NCBI GenBank assembly: GCA_012523405.1
Contig: JAAYIN010000051.1
Span: forward strand, 1 to 64,000
Source: Clostridiales bacterium
GTDB lineage: Bacteria; Bacillota; Clostridia; Christensenellales; Aristaeellaceae
Length of the DNA: 64,000 nt
Reading direction: 5' to 3'
Translations under genes and position numbers: made by a program
Shown here: positions 28,708-40,412 of the stretch, piece after piece
Layout: each line of letters starts with the position of its first letter
Numbering within the stretch: position 1 is the stretch's first letter
The notes under the pieces: model-generated
What the model was told of the DNA's origin: nothing
The model's input: the letters and a program-made list of their open reading frames with translations, nothing else
The model's database searches: none

Positions 28708-31700
28708 TTAGTCGATACGGATGCAGTATACACCGCCCGTATCCTTTCCTGTTGTGCCAATGATCATCAGGTTGCCATAAACAGCGGGGGATGCCTCGAT
28801 CTCAGCTTCCAGCTTGAGGGAATCGAGCACTTTGCCGCTCTTTGCATCCATGAGGTTGATGTTGCCGTTTGATTCAGCTTGGATCAGCCATGCATCGCCA
28901 GCTTCGTTGTACACAGCGACAGGGCTTGATTGGGTGGTGGTTTCAAAGTCTGTTGACCAAACCACAGTTCCCGAATCCTTGTTGAGCGCGAGGACTGTGG
29001 AGCCTTCATCGTCCTTGCTCACGGTATAGATCACAAGGTCGCTGATGCTTTCATTGCCGATCACCGGGCTTGCATAAACGCCGCGCTCTTGCTTGGAATT
29101 ATACTTGAGCTCGGGAATCTCATACTGCCATGCGAGTTCGCCTGTGAGTGCATCAAAGCGGCGAATGGAGCTCACGCCGCCCTTGCTATGAAGGATGTTG
29201 GCGGTATATAGCGAAACATCACCGTTTTCGCTCATGTCAAGGGCAGGTGTGGAGATGATGGTATTCTTTGTATTGACTGCCCAAACAGCGGTCAGCGTAT
29301 TGATATCTACGCATTGCAAGATACCGTCCTTATCGCCATAGTACACATAATTGTTGTACATAGCAACACTGCCATCGATATTGGTTCTTCTCTTGTCCTG
29401 CTTGCCCGCTAATGTCTTGTAGGCTTGTACCTCACTGCCTAGGCTGATCGTACCCGCTTCATGGTTGTACGCCTTGGTTACAGCGCCTAGTTCTGCGCTG
29501 TACACAACGCCGTTCATACCGCCAAAGACCATCGTACCTGTTGTCTTATCAAACAACGCAGAACCCAGAACGCCTGTATAGTTACTGCTCTTATCCTTGC
29601 CATCGTTAGCGATGAGCATTTCCTTCTCGTTGCTGATCAGGTTGATGATATGATAGCCATTGCTGATGGTCTTTTTAACGAGCTTGCTGTTGTACTGACC
29701 AACGCCCAAAATCGGCGTGCCGTTTGTTGCAACAGACAATCCGCCAAAGCTTGGTGCGCCCAGTTCAATAGGCTCACGGGTTGCCGTGCCGTCCACTAGG
29801 TTGTAAAAGTAGATATAGCCGTCCATTGCAGCAACGATTACTTCCTTGAGCGCCTTTGTGCTCTTGGCAGTATCATTGAGGCCCATGCTTTCGCGAACTT
29901 CCGTAGCCCATTTCACAATCACTGCTTGGCCGGGGTTGCCAACGCCAAAGTATGTACCGCTGTCCACCTGCATGCTACCGATGGGCTGTGTCCAAACCTG
30001 CGTTAGTTTTTGCTTCTCCACTTCCGCTGTGCTATAGCTTGCGTTTTGGCGGAAGGGGCCGTTTCTGAAGGTCAGAACGCCCGCTTGCTTCCAAATTGCA
30101 TAGTCATCGCCATCGATGCTCGTGGTAAAAGGCGCGAGCATGGAAATCGTTTTGGTACGCGCGAATGTCTTCATCTTTGAGCCATTCTTATAAAGCGTCG
30201 CAGCGAGCTTGATTTTGCTCGGATCGGTATCCTCTACGCTCAGCGCATCTGCGGAAGGCAATGCCGTTGTCGCGGGAATAGGCGTTGCGGTCGGCTCAGG
30301 CGTGGGGGAGGGTGTGGGGCTTGGAGACGGGCTTGGGGATGGGGTTGCAGAAATCTCTGGCGTCGGCTCAGCCGTAGCGACAATTTCCTCTGCCAAATTC
30401 ACCATGACCGTATACCCTGACATCTCAAATGACTGGGCATCATAGCCCGACTGGTAATGCACCTGATATTCACCCGCATATGCAGACTCTATATCTGCCG
30501 CCAACGTCCAAATGCGGTAGTCGCCATTGTCCTCGACCTGTGCGAATTCATCACTGATATCCGAGTAATACATCGTTGCAATGGGTGTATCATTCTCATC
30601 CACCACGCGAACTGCCGTTACATCAGAGGAGGAGGTGACGGTAAAACGAATTGTCAGCGGGATTTCTCCGCTTTCATTGTCCACTTCAAAGGAGTCAATA
30701 GGCGCCTGCTGCTGCTGGGGTTCTGTGATCACGATGGTTTCAGTGCACCTGATGCCATCGCTCTCATCGCCGTCCTTGTCATGTGCATAGACGGTAAAGC
30801 CGCCGTGGTAAGCCTCCGTTATCGTGAGGGCAGGCTTCCAAAGGTATACGTTGCTATTGCTGATGATCTCTCCTGATTCTTCCTTGCTCTGAGAGTACAT
30901 CCCTTCATATACGACAACGCCGCTATCGTTCACGATGCGAAGATCCGTTACGTTTTTGCTGGTTTGAATCGCGAAAACCACCTCAGTGGGGGCTTGTCCT
31001 TCCGATGCGGTTGCGCTAAAGCTCTTGACCAGCTCTTCCTCGGGGACGATCATATTCTTAACGCTGCTAAAGACCGACACAATGCCGTTTTTCGCTTTGC
31101 TCATGGTTTCGCCGACAGTACCGCCAATGCCGTCCCAATCGGGCAGACAAATGCTTGCGAGCAATACGCCGACAGCCAATATGGTAATGATAATCGGTAC
31201 GAGGATATTGCCGCCGCGATCGTCATCATCATCATCGTCGTCATCGTCCTCAAAATCATAACGATCTCTGGGGGTTGTGGTCGAGGGGACTTGCTTTCTG
31301 CGGAGTTTATTCACAGGAGCAGAGTTTTCGAAATTGGTATCCTCGTCCATTTCAAAGCCATTGCGCTTGTAGGCGATATCCTCCGCCTGATCGCTGTACT
31401 GACTTGCGCTGGGCGCAAACTGCGGCTGCCTTACCTCGCTTGATGGCTGCTGAGCTTGGGGGCGCTGCTGAGGACGGCGAGCTTGCGGGGGTTGTGTCTG
31501 CGTAGTTTGAGCCTGCGGACGCTGCCTCTGGTTTGCCGCGGCGGGTCTTTGGCCCTTTGGGCGTTCACTCTGCGTGCGCTCACCCGTGGGATTTTGCGCC
31601 TGAGCAGCGGGACGCTGGCGCGGTTTTTGTGCGGCAGGGCGGGCTACAGGCTGCTTTTGTTCGGTCTGTGCCGTCTCTTGTGCACCAGTTTGTGCCTGTT

Positions 31701-32454
31701 GCTCTGCGATGACCTGATCGCGCGTTTCGCGTGCGCGCTGAGCAACGCTGCTCTGCGCTGCGCCGCCGCTGGGCATGGCTGTACGAGCCCCTGTATAGCG
31801 TCCGTCCGGCGTTGCCGCCCGACGGCTATGCTGAGGCTTAGCGGGCACTTCGCTATCCCCTGCGCCAAATAAATCAAAATCATTTTCCTGATTCGCAGCA
31901 GGAACAACCACAGCAGGTGCAGCGACTGGCTGAATCTCCTGTGCTTCCTGTTGCCTATTGCGATCCATACGGCTGCGGCGACGCTGCGGCGCAGGCGCTT
32001 CAGCTGCTTTGGTTTCCTGCGGCTCTGCTGCTGCAGGTATTTCTTCATTCACCACTGCCTTGACCCGCGCCAGCGGATCAGGGTTTGAAGCGGATACGCG
32101 CTTGCTGACCATCTGCGCGGTAATCGGCTTACCGATGCGTGTAGGCGCGTCATCTCCTTGAGCCTGAAAACTCAAATTTCCCTGCTGAATTTGCGCACCG
32201 AAAAGCGCCGGCTCATTGGCGAAGAAGTTTTCGCCCTCTGGCATCTTCGGTGATTGCCACGAAGTGAAGTCAGGCTTTTGATCGGATAGATCCGACTGGT
32301 CAAAGCCCACGAATTCCCCTACATGATTCGCGTCATCAGACGATGCAACATGACCCAATTGACCTAGCTGTTCATCCGCCGACGACAGTATATCTGTCAT
32401 ATCCTGTTTCTTTTGTTGACGGCTCTGGGGTTGGTTGCGATTTGATTTACTCAA
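28708..32454 (-). CDS. Large membrane-anchored protein with Gln/Pro-rich region and PQQ-like beta-propeller
   Basis: This 1248-residue protein has a long hydrophilic Gln/Ala/Pro/Arg-rich N-terminal half, a run of about ten Asp near 401-412, and one membrane segment at about 414-437 (ILVPIIITILAVGVLLASIC). Outside follow two related beta-rich modules with FSATASEGQAPTEVVFAI and FEVDNESGEIPLTIRFTV, a Pro/Ser/Thr linker near 695-735 (ATPSPSPSPSPTPSP), and from about 860 a propeller with repeats such as LAWQYEIPEL and GTVVWSTDFETT. The start is a TTG at 32454 with AAGGAGAG eight bases upstream; the ATG at 32400 lacks a good site. Function unknown; a surface or assembly role is only an inference. 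Confidence 0.75.
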   Translation of the reverse strand: MSKSNRNQPQSRQQKKQDMTDILSSADEQLGQLGHVASSDDANHVGEFVGFDQSDLSDQKPDFTSWQSPKMPEGENFFANEPALFGAQIQQGNLSFQAQGDDAPTRIGKPITAQMVSKRVSASNPDPLARVKAVVNEEIPAAAEPQETKAAEAPAPQRRRSRMDRNRQQEAQEIQPVAAPAVVVPAANQENDFDLFGAGDSEVPAKPQHSRRAATPDGRYTGARTAMPSGGAAQSSVAQRARETRDQVIAEQQAQTGAQETAQTEQKQPVARPAAQKPRQRPAAQAQNPTGERTQSERPKGQRPAAANQRQRPQAQTTQTQPPQARRPQQRPQAQQPSSEVRQPQFAPSASQYSDQAEDIAYKRNGFEMDEDTNFENSAPVNKLRRKQVPSTTTPRDRYDFEDDDDDDDDDDRGGNILVPIIITILAVGVLLASICLPDWDGIGGTVGETMSKAKNGIVSVFSSVKNMIVPEEELVKSFSATASEGQAPTEVVFAIQTSKNVTDLRIVNDSGVVVYEGMYSQSKEESGEIISNSNVYLWKPALTITEAYHGGFTVYAHDKDGDESDGIRCTETIVITEPQQQQAPIDSFEVDNESGEIPLTIRFTVTSSSDVTAVRVVDENDTPIATMYYSDISDEFAQVEDNGDYRIWTLAADIESAYAGEYQVHYQSGYDAQSFEMSGYTVMVNLAEEIVATAEPTPEISATPSPSPSPSPTPSPTPEPTATPIPATTALPSADALSVEDTDPSKIKLAATLYKNGSKMKTFARTKTISMLAPFTTSIDGDDYAIWKQAGVLTFRNGPFRQNASYSTAEVEKQKLTQVWTQPIGSMQVDSGTYFGVGNPGQAVIVKWATEVRESMGLNDTAKSTKALKEVIVAAMDGYIYFYNLVDGTATREPIELGAPSFGGLSVATNGTPILGVGQYNSKLVKKTISNGYHIINLISNEKEMLIANDGKDKSSNYTGVLGSALFDKTTGTMVFGGMNGVVYSAELGAVTKAYNHEAGTISLGSEVQAYKTLAGKQDKRRTNIDGSVAMYNNYVYYGDKDGILQCVDINTLTAVWAVNTKNTIISTPALDMSENGDVSLYTANILHSKGGVSSIRRFDALTGELAWQYEIPELKYNSKQERGVYASPVIGNESISDLVIYTVSKDDEGSTVLALNKDSGTVVWSTDFETTTQSSPVAVYNEAGDAWLIQAESNGNINLMDAKSGKVLDSLKLEAEIEASPAVYGNLMIIGTTGKDTGGVYCIRID

Positions 32455-32609
32455 TATATTCGCTCTCCTTATCCTTGGTTCCTCAATGAGGGTACGGTGG
32501 TGTCCTCCACCAGCCTCGATCACTGAGGCAAAAGTTCATTCGTTCATATTGAGGCACGCTGAAATAGCGCGAAGCACACAGTCTATATACAGACGATATG
32601 CCACTTTTT

Positions 32610-32638: not shown

Positions 32639-32876
32639 CCCCCGAATTATCTTCATTGAATGTAACATTTTTCGTCACACCTTTCATTCCCTATGCATAT
32701 ACTAATGAACACCGCCCTACCCCACTTACCGTGATCAGTAAATTTTTACATCTTGTTTTTGCTGAAAACCATGGGTTAGGCAGGTTTTTTCTTGATTTGT
32801 GAAGAATACTACCAGTCAAGTGTAATCGCTATCGTCATCTATCATATTGGCGCAAAATCGCTTCAAGGAGGCTGTC

Positions 32877-34334
32877 ATGCAAGAAACCATCTTGGTACTC
32901 AGTTCAAACGTAGTGCTGTCTGGGCTTATCGCCCGCACTTTACGTTATCGAAGGATATACTGTATGCCAATTCCGCTTCAAACAAAGGCTACCGATTTGC
33001 TGGTGATCAATCCCCGCGGCATCATCATCGCATTACCAGAGGGCGACGCTGATCTGCTGACGCAGCTGGATCTAGGCATATTAACCTCTGGTATCCCGAT
33101 TTTTGCGCTGGGCAGTGCAGCCATTTCGCTCTGCGAGCATTTTGGCGGGACGATTGATGATATTCTAAGAAGCAATGCGGCTGTGAACCTTGAACTTTCA
33201 AGCGATCCGCTTTTTGATCAGATCAACAGCGGCGAGCGCGTGCTTCGCAGCCTCTGCGCCCTTTCGCTGCCCGCGGATTTGGTCGCGCTTGCCAAAGCGT
33301 CCAATGATGTGATCGGCTTTAAGCACGTGACCTTGCCCATCTATGCATTGCAGTATTCCATCGAGCGCAATGATCCGGACAGCGCGCAGCTGCTTTTCAA
33401 CTTTGCGCATGGGATTTGCATGGCCAATACGAACTGGGACGAGGACTTGGTGATTGACACTGCGGTTGATCAAATTCGCAGCATATCCGGAAACGGGCGC
33501 GTGATCTGCGCGATTTCAGGCGGCCTTGACAGCGCCGTTTGCGCAAAGCTCGCAAGCCTTGCGGTTTCAGACCGTCTTGTCTGCCTCTTTGTGGATACGG
33601 GGCTGCTGCGCCTTGATGAAGCGCAGTCCGTCATTGATAGCTACCGAGATATCATGGGCATTGAGGTTGAGTATATCGATGCGAAGGATTCCTTTTTGCA
33701 TGCACTGGCAGGGGTTACCTCCGCCAGCGATAAAAAGCGCATTACCTCATCCCTCATGACCCAGCTCCTCCTCAAATATGTCCAAGAAGAAGAGCAAACG
33801 CCCACCCTTGTGATGGGTACCAACCTCAATGATACCATATCGGGCTTTGCGCAGGATAACCCCATTCAAAAGTCAAAGGGCGATATGCAGCTGAATATCT
33901 ACGAACCGCTCCTGACGGTGTTTAAGGAGGAGGTTGTGCGCATAGCAACCACCATCGGCATGCCGCCAAGCATTACCCAACGAAAGCCATTCCCGCTGAG
34001 CGGGCTTGCACTGCGCATCTCAGGGGAAGTAACGCAGGAACGGCTCAATGTGCTCCGCGGGGCAGAAGCATGCTTTATGAGCGAGATTCGTCAAGGCGAT
34101 TTCCAAAAGCGCCTCTGGCAATATTATACGTCCCTCATCGAAGACCCCGATCACCCCAAAAGCTATATGATCTGCCTGCGCGCTTTGCAATCCGCGCAAG
34201 GCGGGAAGTACGCCGCACGCTTGCCTTTTGATCTTCTGGAGCGAACCACCAATCGCATTCGCGCAGAGGTTCCCGGCATCTCCCGTGTCGTATATGATTT
34301 AACCCCGAGCACAAACATCGTCGATCCGGAATAG
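32877..34334 (+). CDS. Divergent GMP-synthetase-like protein with degenerate glutaminase domain
   Basis: The 485-residue protein follows the GuaA layout. The N-terminal class I amidotransferase-like domain (1-185) lacks the catalytic residues: the Cys position is Gly79 (IFALGSAAI) and the His position is Ser161 (YALQYSIER). The ATP-pyrophosphatase domain has an intact P-loop SGGLDS at 214-219, FVDTGLLRLDEAQ and MGTNLNDT. The C-terminal dimer domain is recognisable (RLPFDLLERTTNRI, RVVYDLT). Substrate-loop motifs of GuaA are changed: the SHHN loop is missing, PFPGPG reads PFPLSG, and the terminal ATIEWE reads TNIVDPE. It could be an ammonia-dependent enzyme with another substrate. AAGGAGG precedes the ATG. 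Confidence 0.8.
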   Translation: MQETILVLSSNVVLSGLIARTLRYRRIYCMPIPLQTKATDLLVINPRGIIIALPEGDADLLTQLDLGILTSGIPIFALGSAAISLCEHFGGTIDDILRSNAAVNLELSSDPLFDQINSGERVLRSLCALSLPADLVALAKASNDVIGFKHVTLPIYALQYSIERNDPDSAQLLFNFAHGICMANTNWDEDLVIDTAVDQIRSISGNGRVICAISGGLDSAVCAKLASLAVSDRLVCLFVDTGLLRLDEAQSVIDSYRDIMGIEVEYIDAKDSFLHALAGVTSASDKKRITSSLMTQLLLKYVQEEEQTPTLVMGTNLNDTISGFAQDNPIQKSKGDMQLNIYEPLLTVFKEEVVRIATTIGMPPSITQRKPFPLSGLALRISGEVTQERLNVLRGAEACFMSEIRQGDFQKRLWQYYTSLIEDPDHPKSYMICLRALQSAQGGKYAARLPFDLLERTTNRIRAEVPGISRVVYDLTPSTNIVDPE

Positions 34335-34381: not shown

Positions 34382-35287
34382 ATGCTCATATGCGATGCCC
34401 ATGCCGATACGCTTTGGCAGATGAAATTCCCCGACCGCCCAGCGGATCTGCCCTTTGATATCACAAAGGAATTTTTGACTCAAGGCGATGATGTACGGGT
34501 TCAGGCACTTGCGCTCTTTGTTGGCAGCAATGGCATGCGGGACTATGATGAAAACATTATTCAGCTAGAGCTCGCTGCCTTTGAAAGGCTAAAGGCGGAT
34601 GGTTTTGTACAGATCACGGAGATTTCGCAGGCAAAAGCAGGGGTTGCTAATGTGATGCTCACCATTGAAGGCGGCGAAGCCTTCGGAGATTCCGTTGATG
34701 CCGTTGATGCGTTCGCCGATATGGGCGTACGCATAGCCGCGCCCATCTGGAACAATGAAAACCTGCTCGCACACTCTGCCACAAGCGGCTCTGGCGAAGG
34801 ACTCAAGCCCCTTGGGCATGCGGTTATCGCTCAAATGCGCAAGCGGCATATGGCTGTTGATCTCTCTCATTTGAACATCCGAGGCACCATGGAGGTGCTG
34901 GACAGCGATATCCCGCCCATCGCAACCCATAGCTGCGCCTATACGCTTTGCAAAGCGGCGCGCAACCTAAACGACGAACAGATTCGCAAGCTCATCTCAG
35001 CAGGCGGTTTCATCGGCGTTAACTTCTATCCTGGATTTTTGGACGATAGCGGCGCAGCAGACATAAGCCGTGTCGTTGACCATATGGCGTATATTTGCGA
35101 TATGGGCGGCGAAAGCATCCTAGGGCTTGGAAGCGATTTTGACGGGATCGATAAATACCCCGAAGGGCTTTACAATGCAGGCGATGTGCCAAAGCTCTTT
35201 GATGCCATGAGGAAGCGGGGCTTTGATGAAAAGCTCGTTGCGCTCATCGCAGGCGAGAACTTCGCGGCATATATGCAGAGGATTTAA
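34382..35287 (+). CDS. Membrane-dipeptidase family (M19) zinc peptidase
   Basis: The 301-residue protein has CDAHADT (His7, Asp9) at its N-terminus, TIEGGEAF with the bridging Glu, VDLSHLN, IATHSCAYTLCKAARNL and LGSDFDGID, the set of metal and substrate residues of renal-dipeptidase-like enzymes. It would hydrolyse dipeptides, possibly those with a D-residue. No signal peptide is present, so it is cytoplasmic. It lies 47 nt after the GuaA-like gene and probably shares its transcript. Confidence 0.92.
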   Translation: MLICDAHADTLWQMKFPDRPADLPFDITKEFLTQGDDVRVQALALFVGSNGMRDYDENIIQLELAAFERLKADGFVQITEISQAKAGVANVMLTIEGGEAFGDSVDAVDAFADMGVRIAAPIWNNENLLAHSATSGSGEGLKPLGHAVIAQMRKRHMAVDLSHLNIRGTMEVLDSDIPPIATHSCAYTLCKAARNLNDEQIRKLISAGGFIGVNFYPGFLDDSGAADISRVVDHMAYICDMGGESILGLGSDFDGIDKYPEGLYNAGDVPKLFDAMRKRGFDEKLVALIAGENFAAYMQRI

Positions 35288-35341: not shown

Positions 35342-36370
35342 TCATTCGCGGTAGAAATTCATCGGGTAGCTCAGGTGGGTGATCTCCTCCAGATTGTCCA
35401 CCGTCACGTACCCAGCGGGGGCGTTGAGCACTGATGGAATGCGGTTGACCACCGTCGCGCAGGTATGCTCCACCGTTGCGGGTTTCTTCACAAAGAAGGT
35501 GGTATCGGGCTCTCCCGTGATCTTCCAGTCGCACATATCGCCGTCATCAGGACCGTAAACCTTGCCGATGCACTGCGTTTCAATGATCGGACCTTGGAAG
35601 GTTTCCGTGGTCACGACCGCGCTCATGCCGATGCAGTTGCCCTTAGGGATCGTCTCGCCCAAGGTCTCAGAATAGAGATCCTCATCATAGAAGAACGGGA
35701 TGCTCTTTTGGGTCTGGCTCTTAATCGTCCAGCCCATCTTGGAGCAAAGCGATTCGTTGGAGTTCCAGACATAGGCGGGTTCCAGTGTCTCAGGGTGCGC
35801 TATCTGCGCCTCAAACTGGTCAGGGGTTAGCCCCGCGCCATGTGCTTTTGCCAGTGCCAGACCATAGTCCTCCACATTGTAGCTAACCGCGCCTTCGATG
35901 CGGTCAATGCGGTGCACGCCCGCTGCTACAAGCGCAACCATGTGATCCCAGAAGATGTCCTGCATGCCGCTGCCGACAATCGTGCAGCCGTTTTCCTTGG
36001 CGAGCGTGTCCAGCTTGTTGGTAATCGCTGCGGCGGTTGTCCACGGATAGATCGCTTCCTCGCAGGTCGTGATGATATCGATGCCGCGCATTGCACATTT
36101 TTCGAATTGCTCATAGCAATCGTTCATGAAGCTAAATAGCGTCACAATCGCGATATCAGCATCACATTCATCAAGCACTGCATCCGCGTCATCTCTGATC
36201 GTAACGCCGATCTTGCAGCCAAGCTCCGCATAGTCCCCCACGTCCATCCCCACCACTGCTGGATCAACGTCAATCGCGCCTACAATCTCCGCGCCTTTTT
36301 CATACAGGTAGCGCAGGGTGTATTTCGCCATTTTGCCGCACCCATATTGAACCACTCTAATCTTTTCCAT
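35342..36370 (-). CDS. DapB-like NAD(P)-dependent amine dehydrogenase family protein
   Basis: The 342-residue protein starts with a Rossmann motif ([17 protein letters not shown]) and resembles the COG3804 group that includes 2,4-diaminopentanoate dehydrogenase of ornithine fermentation, with an N-terminal domain related to dihydrodipicolinate reductase. A role in oxidative deamination of an amino acid derivative is plausible, but other ornithine-pathway genes are not in the window, so the substrate is open. TTAGGAGG precedes the ATG. It is a single gene convergent with the dipeptidase gene. Confidence 0.75.
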
Positions 36371-37562: not shown

Positions 37563-38921
37563 TTATTGGTTTTCCATTTCAATCATTGCAGCTAATTGAT
37601 CAAGCCGCTCAACGAACTCAGCTGCATCCATGCTCCCTGAGCAGAAGCGTTCCATTAATTGCCTCACATTTTGCCCGTTCTCTGTATTGGGATCAAAGAC
37701 GCTGGGCGGCTGGAAGTATAAAGAATCTCCATAAGAACGGTATACGTCCAATTCCTCTTGGGGCACGATATAGCGATTCCTGGGATTTGATACATCTTCC
37801 AATGCGTCGATGAATACCTCCTGCGTAATTTCAAGCTCGGCTCTTGCAAGCGGGTCCATATCCTGCGTGTTTTCCAATTGACGCTCTATTTCCGCGACTC
37901 TGCCTTGCCATTCTTCAACCATAGGCTCATATTGCGGGTCTTCTACAACAGCGGCATTTGAGTACAGATAGGCCCCTGTTCGATCAGAAAGCGCAGCCAG
38001 CGAGGTTTCGATAAACTTCAATGCCAGTTCCTTATTTGGACTGGCCGCATTGAGAAAGTAAGCGGTTAGCATGGACCTGATCAATATGGGTTGATCCTCT
38101 GTCATTCGAAGGGGGACAAGGGTTGCCAAATCCGCCATGCTATAACCATTTTCATTAAATAATTGCATTTCTCCCTTCTGTTCAGGTTCATTTTCATACA
38201 GCGCTTTGCCCGTTTCTACGCATCGATTCAGCAGCTTTGTGAAAATCGGCGTATCAAACCTGAGCGGTTCGTCAGCATATGAGCGCTGCATGATGTAGTT
38301 TTCTACCAGTCTCTGGACTAAGTACGATATATAGCTGTTCTCATCATATAATTCGGAATCAAATACATTGGTCACGCAGATATTGTATTCAGGTTCATCT
38401 GCAATACGTTCCGCCCACATATCCAGAAAATCCAGCAGCCCTGTAAATGAGGTCGGCACGTCCTTTGCGCTAAGTCCTGCCGCTTCCCATGTTTCAGGCA
38501 CATAGGCATAGTAAATTGAAGCAGACTCATATGGAACGCCATAAATGACCCCGTCACGAATGAACTGCTGCTGCACGGAAGGGTACATTTCGCCAATCTT
38601 TTGAGCGATCAATGGATTGTCCGGCAGGCTGGCGCAATAGCCCTTCGCAATCAACTGATCGATGTCAAAGCTTTGGGTGTACATCGTAAACACATCATAA
38701 GGGAACTCACCCGTCAGCATTTCGCCAATCAACTCATCCGTCGAGTTGTAAATGATGGATTCAAATTTCAAGTCTATTTCTGGATTTTCCCTTACAAACT
38801 GCTTGTACACATCACTGTCCGTGGTAAGCCCTTCAACATGCAGCGTATCAGCCAGCGCAGGCATAGCTAGGCAAATAAGGATAAGCGCGGCGGCTAAAGC
38901 CCTTAGCAGCATATGCTTCAT
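37563..38921 (-). CDS. Extracellular solute-binding protein, family 1-like (orphan, second copy)
   Basis: The 452-residue protein has a signal peptide (ALAAALILICLAMPALA-DT) and type 1 solute-binding features: FPYDVFTMYTQSFDIDQLI, a YGVPYESASIYY segment and SFTGLLDFLDMWAERI. No lipobox Cys is present. The gene before it encodes a paralogue with the same layout. No permease or ATPase gene is linked, so a transport role is not shown. AAAGGAGTGGATATCT precedes the ATG. Confidence 0.75.
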   Translation of the reverse strand: MKHMLLRALAAALILICLAMPALADTLHVEGLTTDSDVYKQFVRENPEIDLKFESIIYNSTDELIGEMLTGEFPYDVFTMYTQSFDIDQLIAKGYCASLPDNPLIAQKIGEMYPSVQQQFIRDGVIYGVPYESASIYYAYVPETWEAAGLSAKDVPTSFTGLLDFLDMWAERIADEPEYNICVTNVFDSELYDENSYISYLVQRLVENYIMQRSYADEPLRFDTPIFTKLLNRCVETGKALYENEPEQKGEMQLFNENGYSMADLATLVPLRMTEDQPILIRSMLTAYFLNAASPNKELALKFIETSLAALSDRTGAYLYSNAAVVEDPQYEPMVEEWQGRVAEIERQLENTQDMDPLARAELEITQEVFIDALEDVSNPRNRYIVPQEELDVYRSYGDSLYFQPPSVFDPNTENGQNVRQLMERFCSGSMDAAEFVERLDQLAAMIEMENQ

Positions 38922-38961: not shown

Positions 38962-40371
38962 TCACTTCACCAGATCATCCAATCTCTGAGCAAGCTTTTC
39001 AGCCGTGATGCTTCCGGTTGAAAACTGCTTTCTCTGCGCTGTGATTTCGCTGCTGATTGAGTCAAAACCGTCAGGGGAAGCAAAATAGAAACATTCGACT
39101 AGCGAGTGATAGGTATCCAGTTGTTCTTTGGTTGCATAGTACTCTTGATCATAGACCTTTCCAAGAACGTACTGCCAGCGTATGACATTCTCTTCATATT
39201 CTTTACGGGTCAATTCGTCTGTTGCTGGATCTGCTAGTACAGCATTGCCCTCCTCTATTTTCTGTTGCCAAAAATCCACCAACCCGTAATTCTGGGAAGG
39301 CACTGCCTCATGCGTATCTGAAAACAAATCAGCTTTTGCCTTCAGATAATCGGCGTCTTCCGTTGTCTGTTTCATCACATCACAGGTATGGCTGCGCAAA
39401 TTGTTCATGAAAAAAGCCAGGAAGGACGCGGCTTGTTCAGCGTTTTTGCTCGCTGCACTAACAGCGCACAGCTTCATCTCGGATTTAATGAAGATCGGAT
39501 CATCGTCCGTCATGCGCAACGGTATCAGCTGACCGAGTGCGCGTAGTTCGCCTGTTCGATCCGAAAACAGGGCTTCACTATCTTTTATGTCGTCATATTG
39601 GTAGAGCAGCTCTCCCACTGTTTTTGTCCGTTCCAGCAATGCGATGAATTCCGATGTGCTAAACTGCACCGCCATCCCCTGAAACTCGCATTGATCAACA
39701 TAATTTCCAATCAGCAGTTCCAGCAACCAATTCGTATAGGCGGTTGGTCCATAGTTATCGTCGTCAAATGAATAGATGCACACATTGTCTATCGGTTTTG
39801 TGCGGATGCCTTCACAATACCCTTCCAGAAAGTCTAGGAAGCCTGTATATGATGCGGGAACATCCGTCTCCGCCAACCCTGCCAGCTCCCATACGTTTTT
39901 GTCGTAATAGAAATATCTTGGCGAAACACAAAGCGGTACACCATATACCTTTCCATCATAAGTAACCGCATTCATGAGGGACGGATGAATCTGCGCAACG
40001 ACGTCCATAACAGCCTCATACTGCGACAAATCCACGCAAAGACCTTCTGCGATGATCTGTCTGTGATCATGGGACAAGGTATCCATTGTGAACACATCTG
40101 TCTTAAATTCCTTCTTTTCCAAGGCCTTTTGCAAAGACTTCGTTGATTGATAAGGCATCTTCTTATTGGGGGATAGCTTGTTATCGGGATATGCACTCGT
40201 AAAGGCTGCATACCATTGAGCTTCAAGCGATTTATTTTCTTCCGAGTACAGAGTTTTTGGATTAAAGTAAATGCCTTGAATTTTCAAAGTTTCTGCTGCT
40301 GCGAATGCGGATGTGCAGGTACATAGTAATACCAACAGCCATACGATCCATTTGCTGAAAACCGATTTCAT
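38962..40371 (-). CDS. Extracellular solute-binding protein, family 1-like (orphan, first copy)
   Basis: The 469-residue protein has a signal peptide (WIVWLLVLLCTCTSAFA) and matches its downstream paralogue at FKTDVFTMDTLSHD, YGVPLCVSPRYFYYD and SYTGFLDFLEGY. Both proteins end in a helical region around an (E)QLD-Y motif and an RLD-L tail. The start is the ATG at 40371, directly after GGAGGGAAAGGGT; the ATG at 40386 is less likely. It is the first gene of the three-gene secreted operon. Confidence 0.75.
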   Translation of the reverse strand: MKSVFSKWIVWLLVLLCTCTSAFAAAETLKIQGIYFNPKTLYSEENKSLEAQWYAAFTSAYPDNKLSPNKKMPYQSTKSLQKALEKKEFKTDVFTMDTLSHDHRQIIAEGLCVDLSQYEAVMDVVAQIHPSLMNAVTYDGKVYGVPLCVSPRYFYYDKNVWELAGLAETDVPASYTGFLDFLEGYCEGIRTKPIDNVCIYSFDDDNYGPTAYTNWLLELLIGNYVDQCEFQGMAVQFSTSEFIALLERTKTVGELLYQYDDIKDSEALFSDRTGELRALGQLIPLRMTDDDPIFIKSEMKLCAVSAASKNAEQAASFLAFFMNNLRSHTCDVMKQTTEDADYLKAKADLFSDTHEAVPSQNYGLVDFWQQKIEEGNAVLADPATDELTRKEYEENVIRWQYVLGKVYDQEYYATKEQLDTYHSLVECFYFASPDGFDSISSEITAQRKQFSTGSITAEKLAQRLDDLVK

Positions 40372-40412
40372 ACCCTTTCCCTCCATCCATCATGATGATT
40401 CCGCGTTTCTGC

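Follow-up and report, generated by a model that had tools for sequence, protein, structure and literature searches.

Bacterial GMP synthetase (GuaA) combines a class-I glutaminase (GATase) domain with a Cys-His-Glu triad, an ATP-pyrophosphatase (ATPPase) core and a C-terminal dimerisation domain. For the Plasmodium enzyme (PfGMPS), the available text of PMC10526850 reports that mutation of the lysine or of one histidine of the lid abolished adenyl-XMP formation, and that mutation of the other lid histidine slowed it. Glutaminase-less forms are the stand-alone ATPPase subunit of archaea and a truncated form (GuaA-T), in which the glutaminase domain is largely or wholly missing and the IK(S/T)HHN lid, the PFPGPG motif and the C-terminal IEWE are kept. 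LarE is a PP-loop sulfur transferase. A dead glutaminase domain is retained in CPS1, whose synthetase domains are of the ATP-grasp type and unrelated to those considered here. According to the available text of PMC4655335, CPS1 uses free ammonia and keeps an inactive class-I glutaminase domain, the cysteine of which is Ser294 in the human protein.

A paralogue of GuaA is encoded in the stretch of 64,000 nucleotides (the window) analysed from contig JAAYIN010000051.1 of a Clostridiales bacterium of the Aristaeellaceae. The gene occupies 32877..34334 on the + strand and encodes 485 residues plus stop when counted from its ATG, or 495 residues from an alternative TTG upstream at 32847. The three-domain order, the full-length fold, the PP-loop, the Lys of KDEVR and the core of the dimerisation domain are those of bacterial GuaA, but the glutaminase triad, the lid, the Glu of DxxES and the XMP contacts Arg102, Lys302 and Arg249 are missing. 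As in the glutaminase-less forms, no working glutaminase is expected on the chain; the architecture is nevertheless the reverse of that of GuaA-T, since the glutaminase domain is kept and the synthetase motifs are lost. The likeness to CPS1 lies in the retention of a presumably dead class-I glutaminase domain, and the use of ammonia by the paralogue is predicted by analogy.

The glutaminase domain (32877..33422, +; about residues 1–182) carries Gly79 and Ser161 in place of the triad Cys and His, and keeps Glu163. The ATPPase core (33438..33995, +; about residues 188–373) lacks the lid motif. It contains an intact PP-loop SGGLDS (33516..33533, +; residues 214–219), the motif GTNLND (33816..33833, +; residues 314–319), in which the Asp of DxxES is kept and its Glu, three residues on, is lost, and PFPLSG (33987..34004, +; residues 371–376) replacing PFPGPG. 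In the C-terminal dimerisation-type domain (GMP_synt_C; 34083..34331, +; residues 403–485), the GVMGDxR loop is shortened, Lys302 (M. jannaschii numbering) corresponds to Ser478, and the chain ends with TPSTNIVDPE instead of KPPATIEWE. The TNIVDPE tail is peculiar to the window genome, whereas that of most genus members is HYGELE-like. An earlier note on this DNA had pointed out the intact SGGLDS loop, the two substituted glutaminase positions, the absence of SHHN, the altered PFPGPG motif and the unusual C-terminus, and the alignment bore out all of these.

The scores of the protein against GuaA models were far above chance but under both equivalog cut-offs, as befits a clear GuaA homologue that is not at equivalog level: 277 bits with the NCBIfam full-length model PRK00074 (cut-off 400) and 225.9 bits with NCBIfam guaA_Cterm (cut-off 338.75). 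Pfam GMP_synt_C was matched over its cut-off with 37.1 bits and Pfam NAD_synthase with 36.5 bits (cut-off 21), and Pfam GATase gave 19.4 bits, under its cut-off of 22.8. The NadE model TIGR00552 (30.9 bits, cut-off 63.65) and the LarE model TIGR00268 (30 bits, cut-off 150) were not passed. A PP-loop SGGxDS in an ATP-PPase fold defines the superfamily of N-type ATP pyrophosphatases, to which the protein belongs by its SGGLDS loop, its NAD_synthase match and its modelled fold; by its anatomy it would work like a member of this superfamily. It is not filed as GuaA because several defining GuaA features were tested and found to be missing.

A structure was predicted with AlphaFold2 from an input alignment of the window protein and 44 proteins from named contigs. 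The mean pLDDT was 90.5, and the only stretch of at least three residues below 50 was 481–485. In the structural alignment of the model, GMP synthetases or domains of such enzymes filled the first 16 rows, including row 2, 9kpv, which has just 'enzyme' as its title but is listed with the sequence of 1gpm. Z-scores of the 12 full-length GMP synthetase rows were 29.3–37.2 over 447–479 residues, with 37.2 for 3tqi and 36.3 for 2ywc with XMP; the XMP-bound archaeal subunit 6jp9 gave 33.2. As GMP synthetases match along the full length, all three domains are present in the model, and the complete GuaA fold, the three-domain layout of which the earlier note had read from the sequence, is predicted to be kept. 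LarE followed the GMP synthetases as the best other fold, mixed with other glutaminase rows, with Z of 20–22 over 232–250 residues; its match comprises only residues from about 185 on, with 16–18% identity.

A separate canonical guaA with all motifs was looked for in the window genome (3.56 Mb, 130 contigs, 96% complete) and was found at G000:C15:74501-76003. Its product is 28% identical to the paralogue and scores 463 bits with guaA_Cterm, which passes the cut-off. An IMPDH (guaB-type) gene is also present.

Relatives were searched in 60 genomes, the window's own included. All 17 genomes of the genus carry the paralogue in open, full-length frames, 43–53% identical to the window protein outside its own genome. 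In the family, 100 genomes from 50 genera were scored against the paralogue alignment: 71 had a match of at least 394 bits, the canonical GuaA rows listed having at most 371 bits, and G061 was added as a member by its whole open reading frame, which brings the count to at least 72 of 100. Rows of at least 394 bits were checked by motif, and rows below this value only where fetched. One of the latter, in G017 (L252:2722-4170, +), turned out to be a paralogue, if a very divergent one, and further matches lay beyond those listed; 72 is accordingly a lower bound. The G017 protein, a likely member, has lost both the PP-loop Asp (SGGLLS) and the GT motif, and as the longest branch in the tree its placement is unsure. 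By hand tally, the paralogue is spread over some forty sampled genera of the family. An order-level search of 297 genomes at a strict threshold gave 51 matches outside the family, of which 8 were inspected, together with one weaker match (G057); the spread outside the family is accordingly a lower bound. Of these nine, four are canonical. In two, the glutaminase is dead and both the lid and the XMP motifs are intact. The remaining three, which belong to a single further family, lack the lid as well as a working glutaminase and are likely members. With the single window protein as query, the contig collection returned no match; the alignment as query did match, and the best 80 matches were taken. 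A description of such a GuaA paralogue was not found in a literature search that was thin for subscription journals and preprints. The proteins form a large family, mostly from uncultured Clostridia, that has apparently gone undescribed so far.

Catalytic residues and XMP contacts were taken from the available text of PMC10526850 and mapped onto the paralogues by alignment, both in the 17 genus members and in 94 rows family-wide, at least two of which repeat a contig (L079 = L215, L082 = L218). The position of the glutaminase Cys is occupied by Gly in 16/17 genus members and 92/94 rows. The His is replaced in all 17 and still His in three of the 94 rows, and the triad Glu and Asp166 are conserved in 93 rows each. 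The IK(S/T)HHN lid is absent from all genus members, and HHN is complete in a single row of the 94. Of the DxxES motif, 16 of the 17 genus members have the Asp and none has the Glu. Arg102 (M. jannaschii) corresponds to Lys287 in the window protein, and the remaining 16 genus members have an acidic residue (Glu or Asp) there; family-wide, the position is still Arg in 38/94 rows. The Lys302 position is Ser throughout the genus and Lys in 9/94 rows. The Arg249 loop is shortened, and the aligned residue, in an uncertain part of the alignment, is His in the window protein and Arg in 3/17 genus members. Ile307 is replaced by Pro in the window protein, a Glu is aligned with Glu308 in all 17 genus members, that of the window included, and Arg294 is kept in 16. 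For Arg102, Arg249, Lys302, Ile307 and Glu308, the window protein has therefore Lys, His, Ser, Pro and Glu. The PP-loop is intact in 17/17 genus members and 84/94 rows. The core of the dimerisation domain is kept, with the near-invariant residues Arg448 (88/94), Asp452 (92/94) and Glu455 (91/94).

Judged from these alignments, the glutaminase triad of the window protein is broken, and the lid and most XMP contacts are gone. Since lid residues essential in PfGMPS are absent, the known GuaA reaction should not run, and identity as an ordinary GMP synthetase was ruled out on these grounds. The earlier note would have accepted a degenerate but ordinary GMP synthetase if the genome had no second guaA and the XMP contacts were conserved; a guaA is present and most contacts are replaced. 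A degenerate GMP synthetase that still works with ammonia is very unlikely for the same two reasons, the canonical guaA of the genome and the loss of lid and contacts. Persistence of Arg102 in part of the family would fit such an activity, as would 8 of 14 hand-picked genomes that have IMPDH (guaB-type), no GuaA over the cut-off and only the paralogue. Two of these eight (G068, G119), however, have a paralogue without the PP-loop Asp, and the 7 of 72 paralogue-bearing family genomes without any other match are to be compared with 7.4 predicted from genome incompleteness alone. The glutaminase model TIGR00888 had a match over its cut-off in 3 of the same 14 genomes, so that a separate GuaA glutaminase subunit was not seen, at this cut-off, in genomes with only a truncated GuaA.

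Trees were computed by quick searches, with SH-aLRT support only. In a tree of 48 rows, a branch with a support of 99 separated the paralogues from the GuaA of the family and of other phyla, and in a tree that included the three likely members from another family the paralogue clade had a support of 97, with the glutaminase-less GuaA-T as the nearest outside group (support 92). A phylogeny with real GuaA and other ATP-pyrophosphatases had been proposed as a check in the earlier note. A further tree joined four rows of GuaA to 91 rows from the family, L079, L082 and G061 being left out. In this last tree the protein of G092 was sister to all other family members, with a support of 99. It has a dead glutaminase beside intact KAHHNVGGLP, PFPGPG and KPPATIEWE motifs, and with 481.9 bits its ATPPase part is above the cut-off of guaA_Cterm, which would fit an ammonia-dependent GMP synthetase. 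Its position indicates that the glutaminase was lost before the XMP site. The paralogue clade probably arose, within this clostridial order, from a GMP synthetase duplicate deficient in glutaminase.

GuaA-T was encountered in L071, L072, L241 and L242, and in the frames L248:2524-3498 and L253:2528-3493, which are cut by the locus end; the lid and XMP motifs are intact. In the genus genomes G001, G003 and G014, the sole GuaA over the guaA_Cterm cut-off is a short GuaA-T-like frame (judged for G014 from frame length alone). A GuaA-T-like frame directly follows a canonical guaA in G267 and G274. The GuaA proteins L246:3989-5494 (+) and L249:971-2512 (-) come from two further families of the order; their synthetase motifs are intact and their glutaminase is dead. 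They group with canonical GuaA in the tree, so that glutaminase losses were apparently independent.

The dN/dS ratio was 0.12–0.49 in 15 of 16 pairs, the remaining pair being not computable because synonymous sites were saturated. The paralogue family is under purifying selection. This contradicts a decaying pseudogene or an assembly artefact, which the fast divergence within the genus and the progressive loss of motifs might have suggested. The full-length open frames in 17 genomes and the same-strand neighbours, mostly at short spacing, also speak against decay, which is hardly credible.

Conservation of the ATP site was compared between clades. A set of eight ATP-site residues was 98% conserved in the clade of the window protein (21 rows), compared with 64% for the protein at large, and none of 20000 random site sets was as high; it was 99% conserved in a basal group of 22 rows. 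In a sister clade of 23 rows, most of which adjoin a CHAP-domain gene, the set was 80% conserved and the PP-loop Asp 61%, whereas a control set made up of further conserved positions was 98% conserved; the ATP-site set was still above most random sets (66/20000 as high). Both sets were chosen by the authors, the control being drawn from residues whose conservation was already apparent, and the figures therefore represent a clade-to-clade contrast rather than an unbiased test. The Asp is lost in 9/94 rows, all in this CHAP clade, with six changes by parsimony. As other residues stay conserved, catalysis would be dispensable in these nine, although 14 of the 23 keep the Asp, so that some members may still be active. 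The nine without Asp, a large share of the CHAP clade, are probably pseudoenzymes. In the window clade, the contrast favours a working ATP site, but a conserved PP-loop could also reflect nucleotide binding without turnover.

The window protein might itself be a nucleotide-binding pseudoenzyme, which would sense ATP, AMP or a purine nucleotide and regulate a partner, perhaps GuaA through the dimerisation domain. HisZ is a dead paralogue that acts as a regulator. The trypanosome prozyme is likewise described as a dead paralogue regulating its partner. This possibility deserves serious weight, if well short of even odds. The residues that mark the dead glutaminase (Gly, Glu and Asp166) are conserved almost throughout the 94 rows, in which a complete lid is so rare. 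The dimerisation core is kept with near-invariant residues of its own, and genes that have lost the PP-loop Asp are still under selection (dN/dS 0.35 between G022 and G093, both without it). Some paralogues stand beside guaB, purE or purD, guaB being immediately upstream in three genomes of one genus. The near-invariant ATP site of the window clade argues against a regulator, as does the co-occurrence of the paralogue with different types of GuaA, full-length and truncated. Moreover, 28 of the 100 family genomes gave no paralogue at the threshold used, and a GuaA match of some kind is present in 27 of these 28.

Gene neighbours were compared using ORF calls by codon score, in which several starts are over-long and some gaps consequently negative. 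An M19 dipeptidase gene (34382..35287, +) begins 47 bp downstream of the paralogue on the same strand. The functional link to this gene suggested in the earlier note holds as a pairing at the genus level, in 17/17 genomes, and outside the genus in G024. The upstream order smc-rnc-acpP-plsX (names by eye) is common to nine genus members, so that block synteny explains part of the pairing, but the pair is kept with different upstream genes in G010 and G024. The link does not extend to the family, where an M19 relative occurs once in each of 83 of the 100 genomes, mostly unlinked to the paralogue, and where the paralogue has other neighbours. By hand tally over the 100 genomes, 63 have both genes, 9 the paralogue only, 20 M19 only and 8 neither (Fisher p 0.075, without correction for relatedness), and M19 was rejected as a family-wide functional partner.

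Elsewhere in the family, the immediate same-strand upstream neighbour is MazG-like in 17 of 94 loci and a CHAP/PG-binding gene in 22, and the immediate same-strand downstream neighbour is a GNAT gene in 33, loci cut by contig ends being included in the 94. GNAT was also rejected as a linked partner: a relative is found in 71/100 family genomes, and the four genus genomes drawn have it and the paralogue on different contigs. Neighbouring CHAP, dapF and dapL, with dapA and dapB (the last two by eye), suggest a role in peptidoglycan or DAP amidation, but the dap neighbours are confined to a few genera and may be old synteny. Since none of the neighbours recurs throughout the family, the substrate cannot be read from the gene context. 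Riboswitch control was looked for with Rfam, and no match over the gathering score was obtained in the window or in 20 paralogue loci. A defence role was dismissed: PADLOC gave only SspD, with 17.3 bits over the PP-loop region, which was taken as superfamily noise.

Other genes of these loci were recorded. At 28708-32523 (-), the window encodes a 1271-residue protein whose N-terminal part looks low in complexity by eye and whose C-terminus matches PQQ_2; in 15 loci, relatives lie upstream of the paralogue in divergent orientation. The protein at 35342-36370 (-) resembles 2,4-diaminopentanoate dehydrogenase, with DAP_DH_C over the Pfam cut-off, and was not seen as a neighbour elsewhere among the loci. 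Two adjacent related proteins at 37563-38921 and 38962-40386 (-) are extracellular solute-binding-like by eye and cluster together. Directly upstream of the paralogue in seven loci is a protein of about 675 residues with a GH127 middle-domain match (L204:6595-8619, -, and similar).

The reading favoured over a regulator, though held with slightly less than even confidence, is that the paralogue of the window clade is an ATP-using, ammonia-fed enzyme acting on an acid other than XMP. ATP would be bound through SGGxDS, a small acid would be adenylated in a pocket reshaped where the lid is missing, and AMP would then be displaced by free ammonia or a different nucleophile. The dead glutaminase would have been retained in a structural role or to guide ammonia, comparable to the dead domain of CPS1. 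LarE, the first fold listed after the GMP synthetases, is an example of a PP-loop enzyme with another substrate. The earlier note had likewise proposed retained ATP chemistry on another compound. With an ATP site near-invariant in its clade, a second guaA in the genome and most XMP contacts lost, this part of the proposal is reasonable. That the window protein is an enzyme is less secure, as the lid Lys and His, essential in PfGMPS, and the Glu of DxxES are lost, members of the sister clade often lack the PP-loop Asp, and neither a family-constant neighbour nor an Rfam match was found. For the family as a whole, it is tentatively proposed, as one plausible account, that a GMP synthetase scaffold with a structural, dead glutaminase serves to amidate or activate another acid, and that one branch has become a selected pseudoenzyme.

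GuaA generally passes for a housekeeping enzyme with a single function, and genes of the paralogue would be readily annotated as GMP synthase; GMP synthesis should not be inferred from such annotations. Within one clade, the paralogues form a stepwise series, from a dead glutaminase with an intact XMP site, through loss of the XMP site, to loss of the ATP-site Asp. Such a natural series lends itself to asking what purpose a retained, dead amidotransferase domain serves, and these proteins may also provide a new ATP-dependent reaction.
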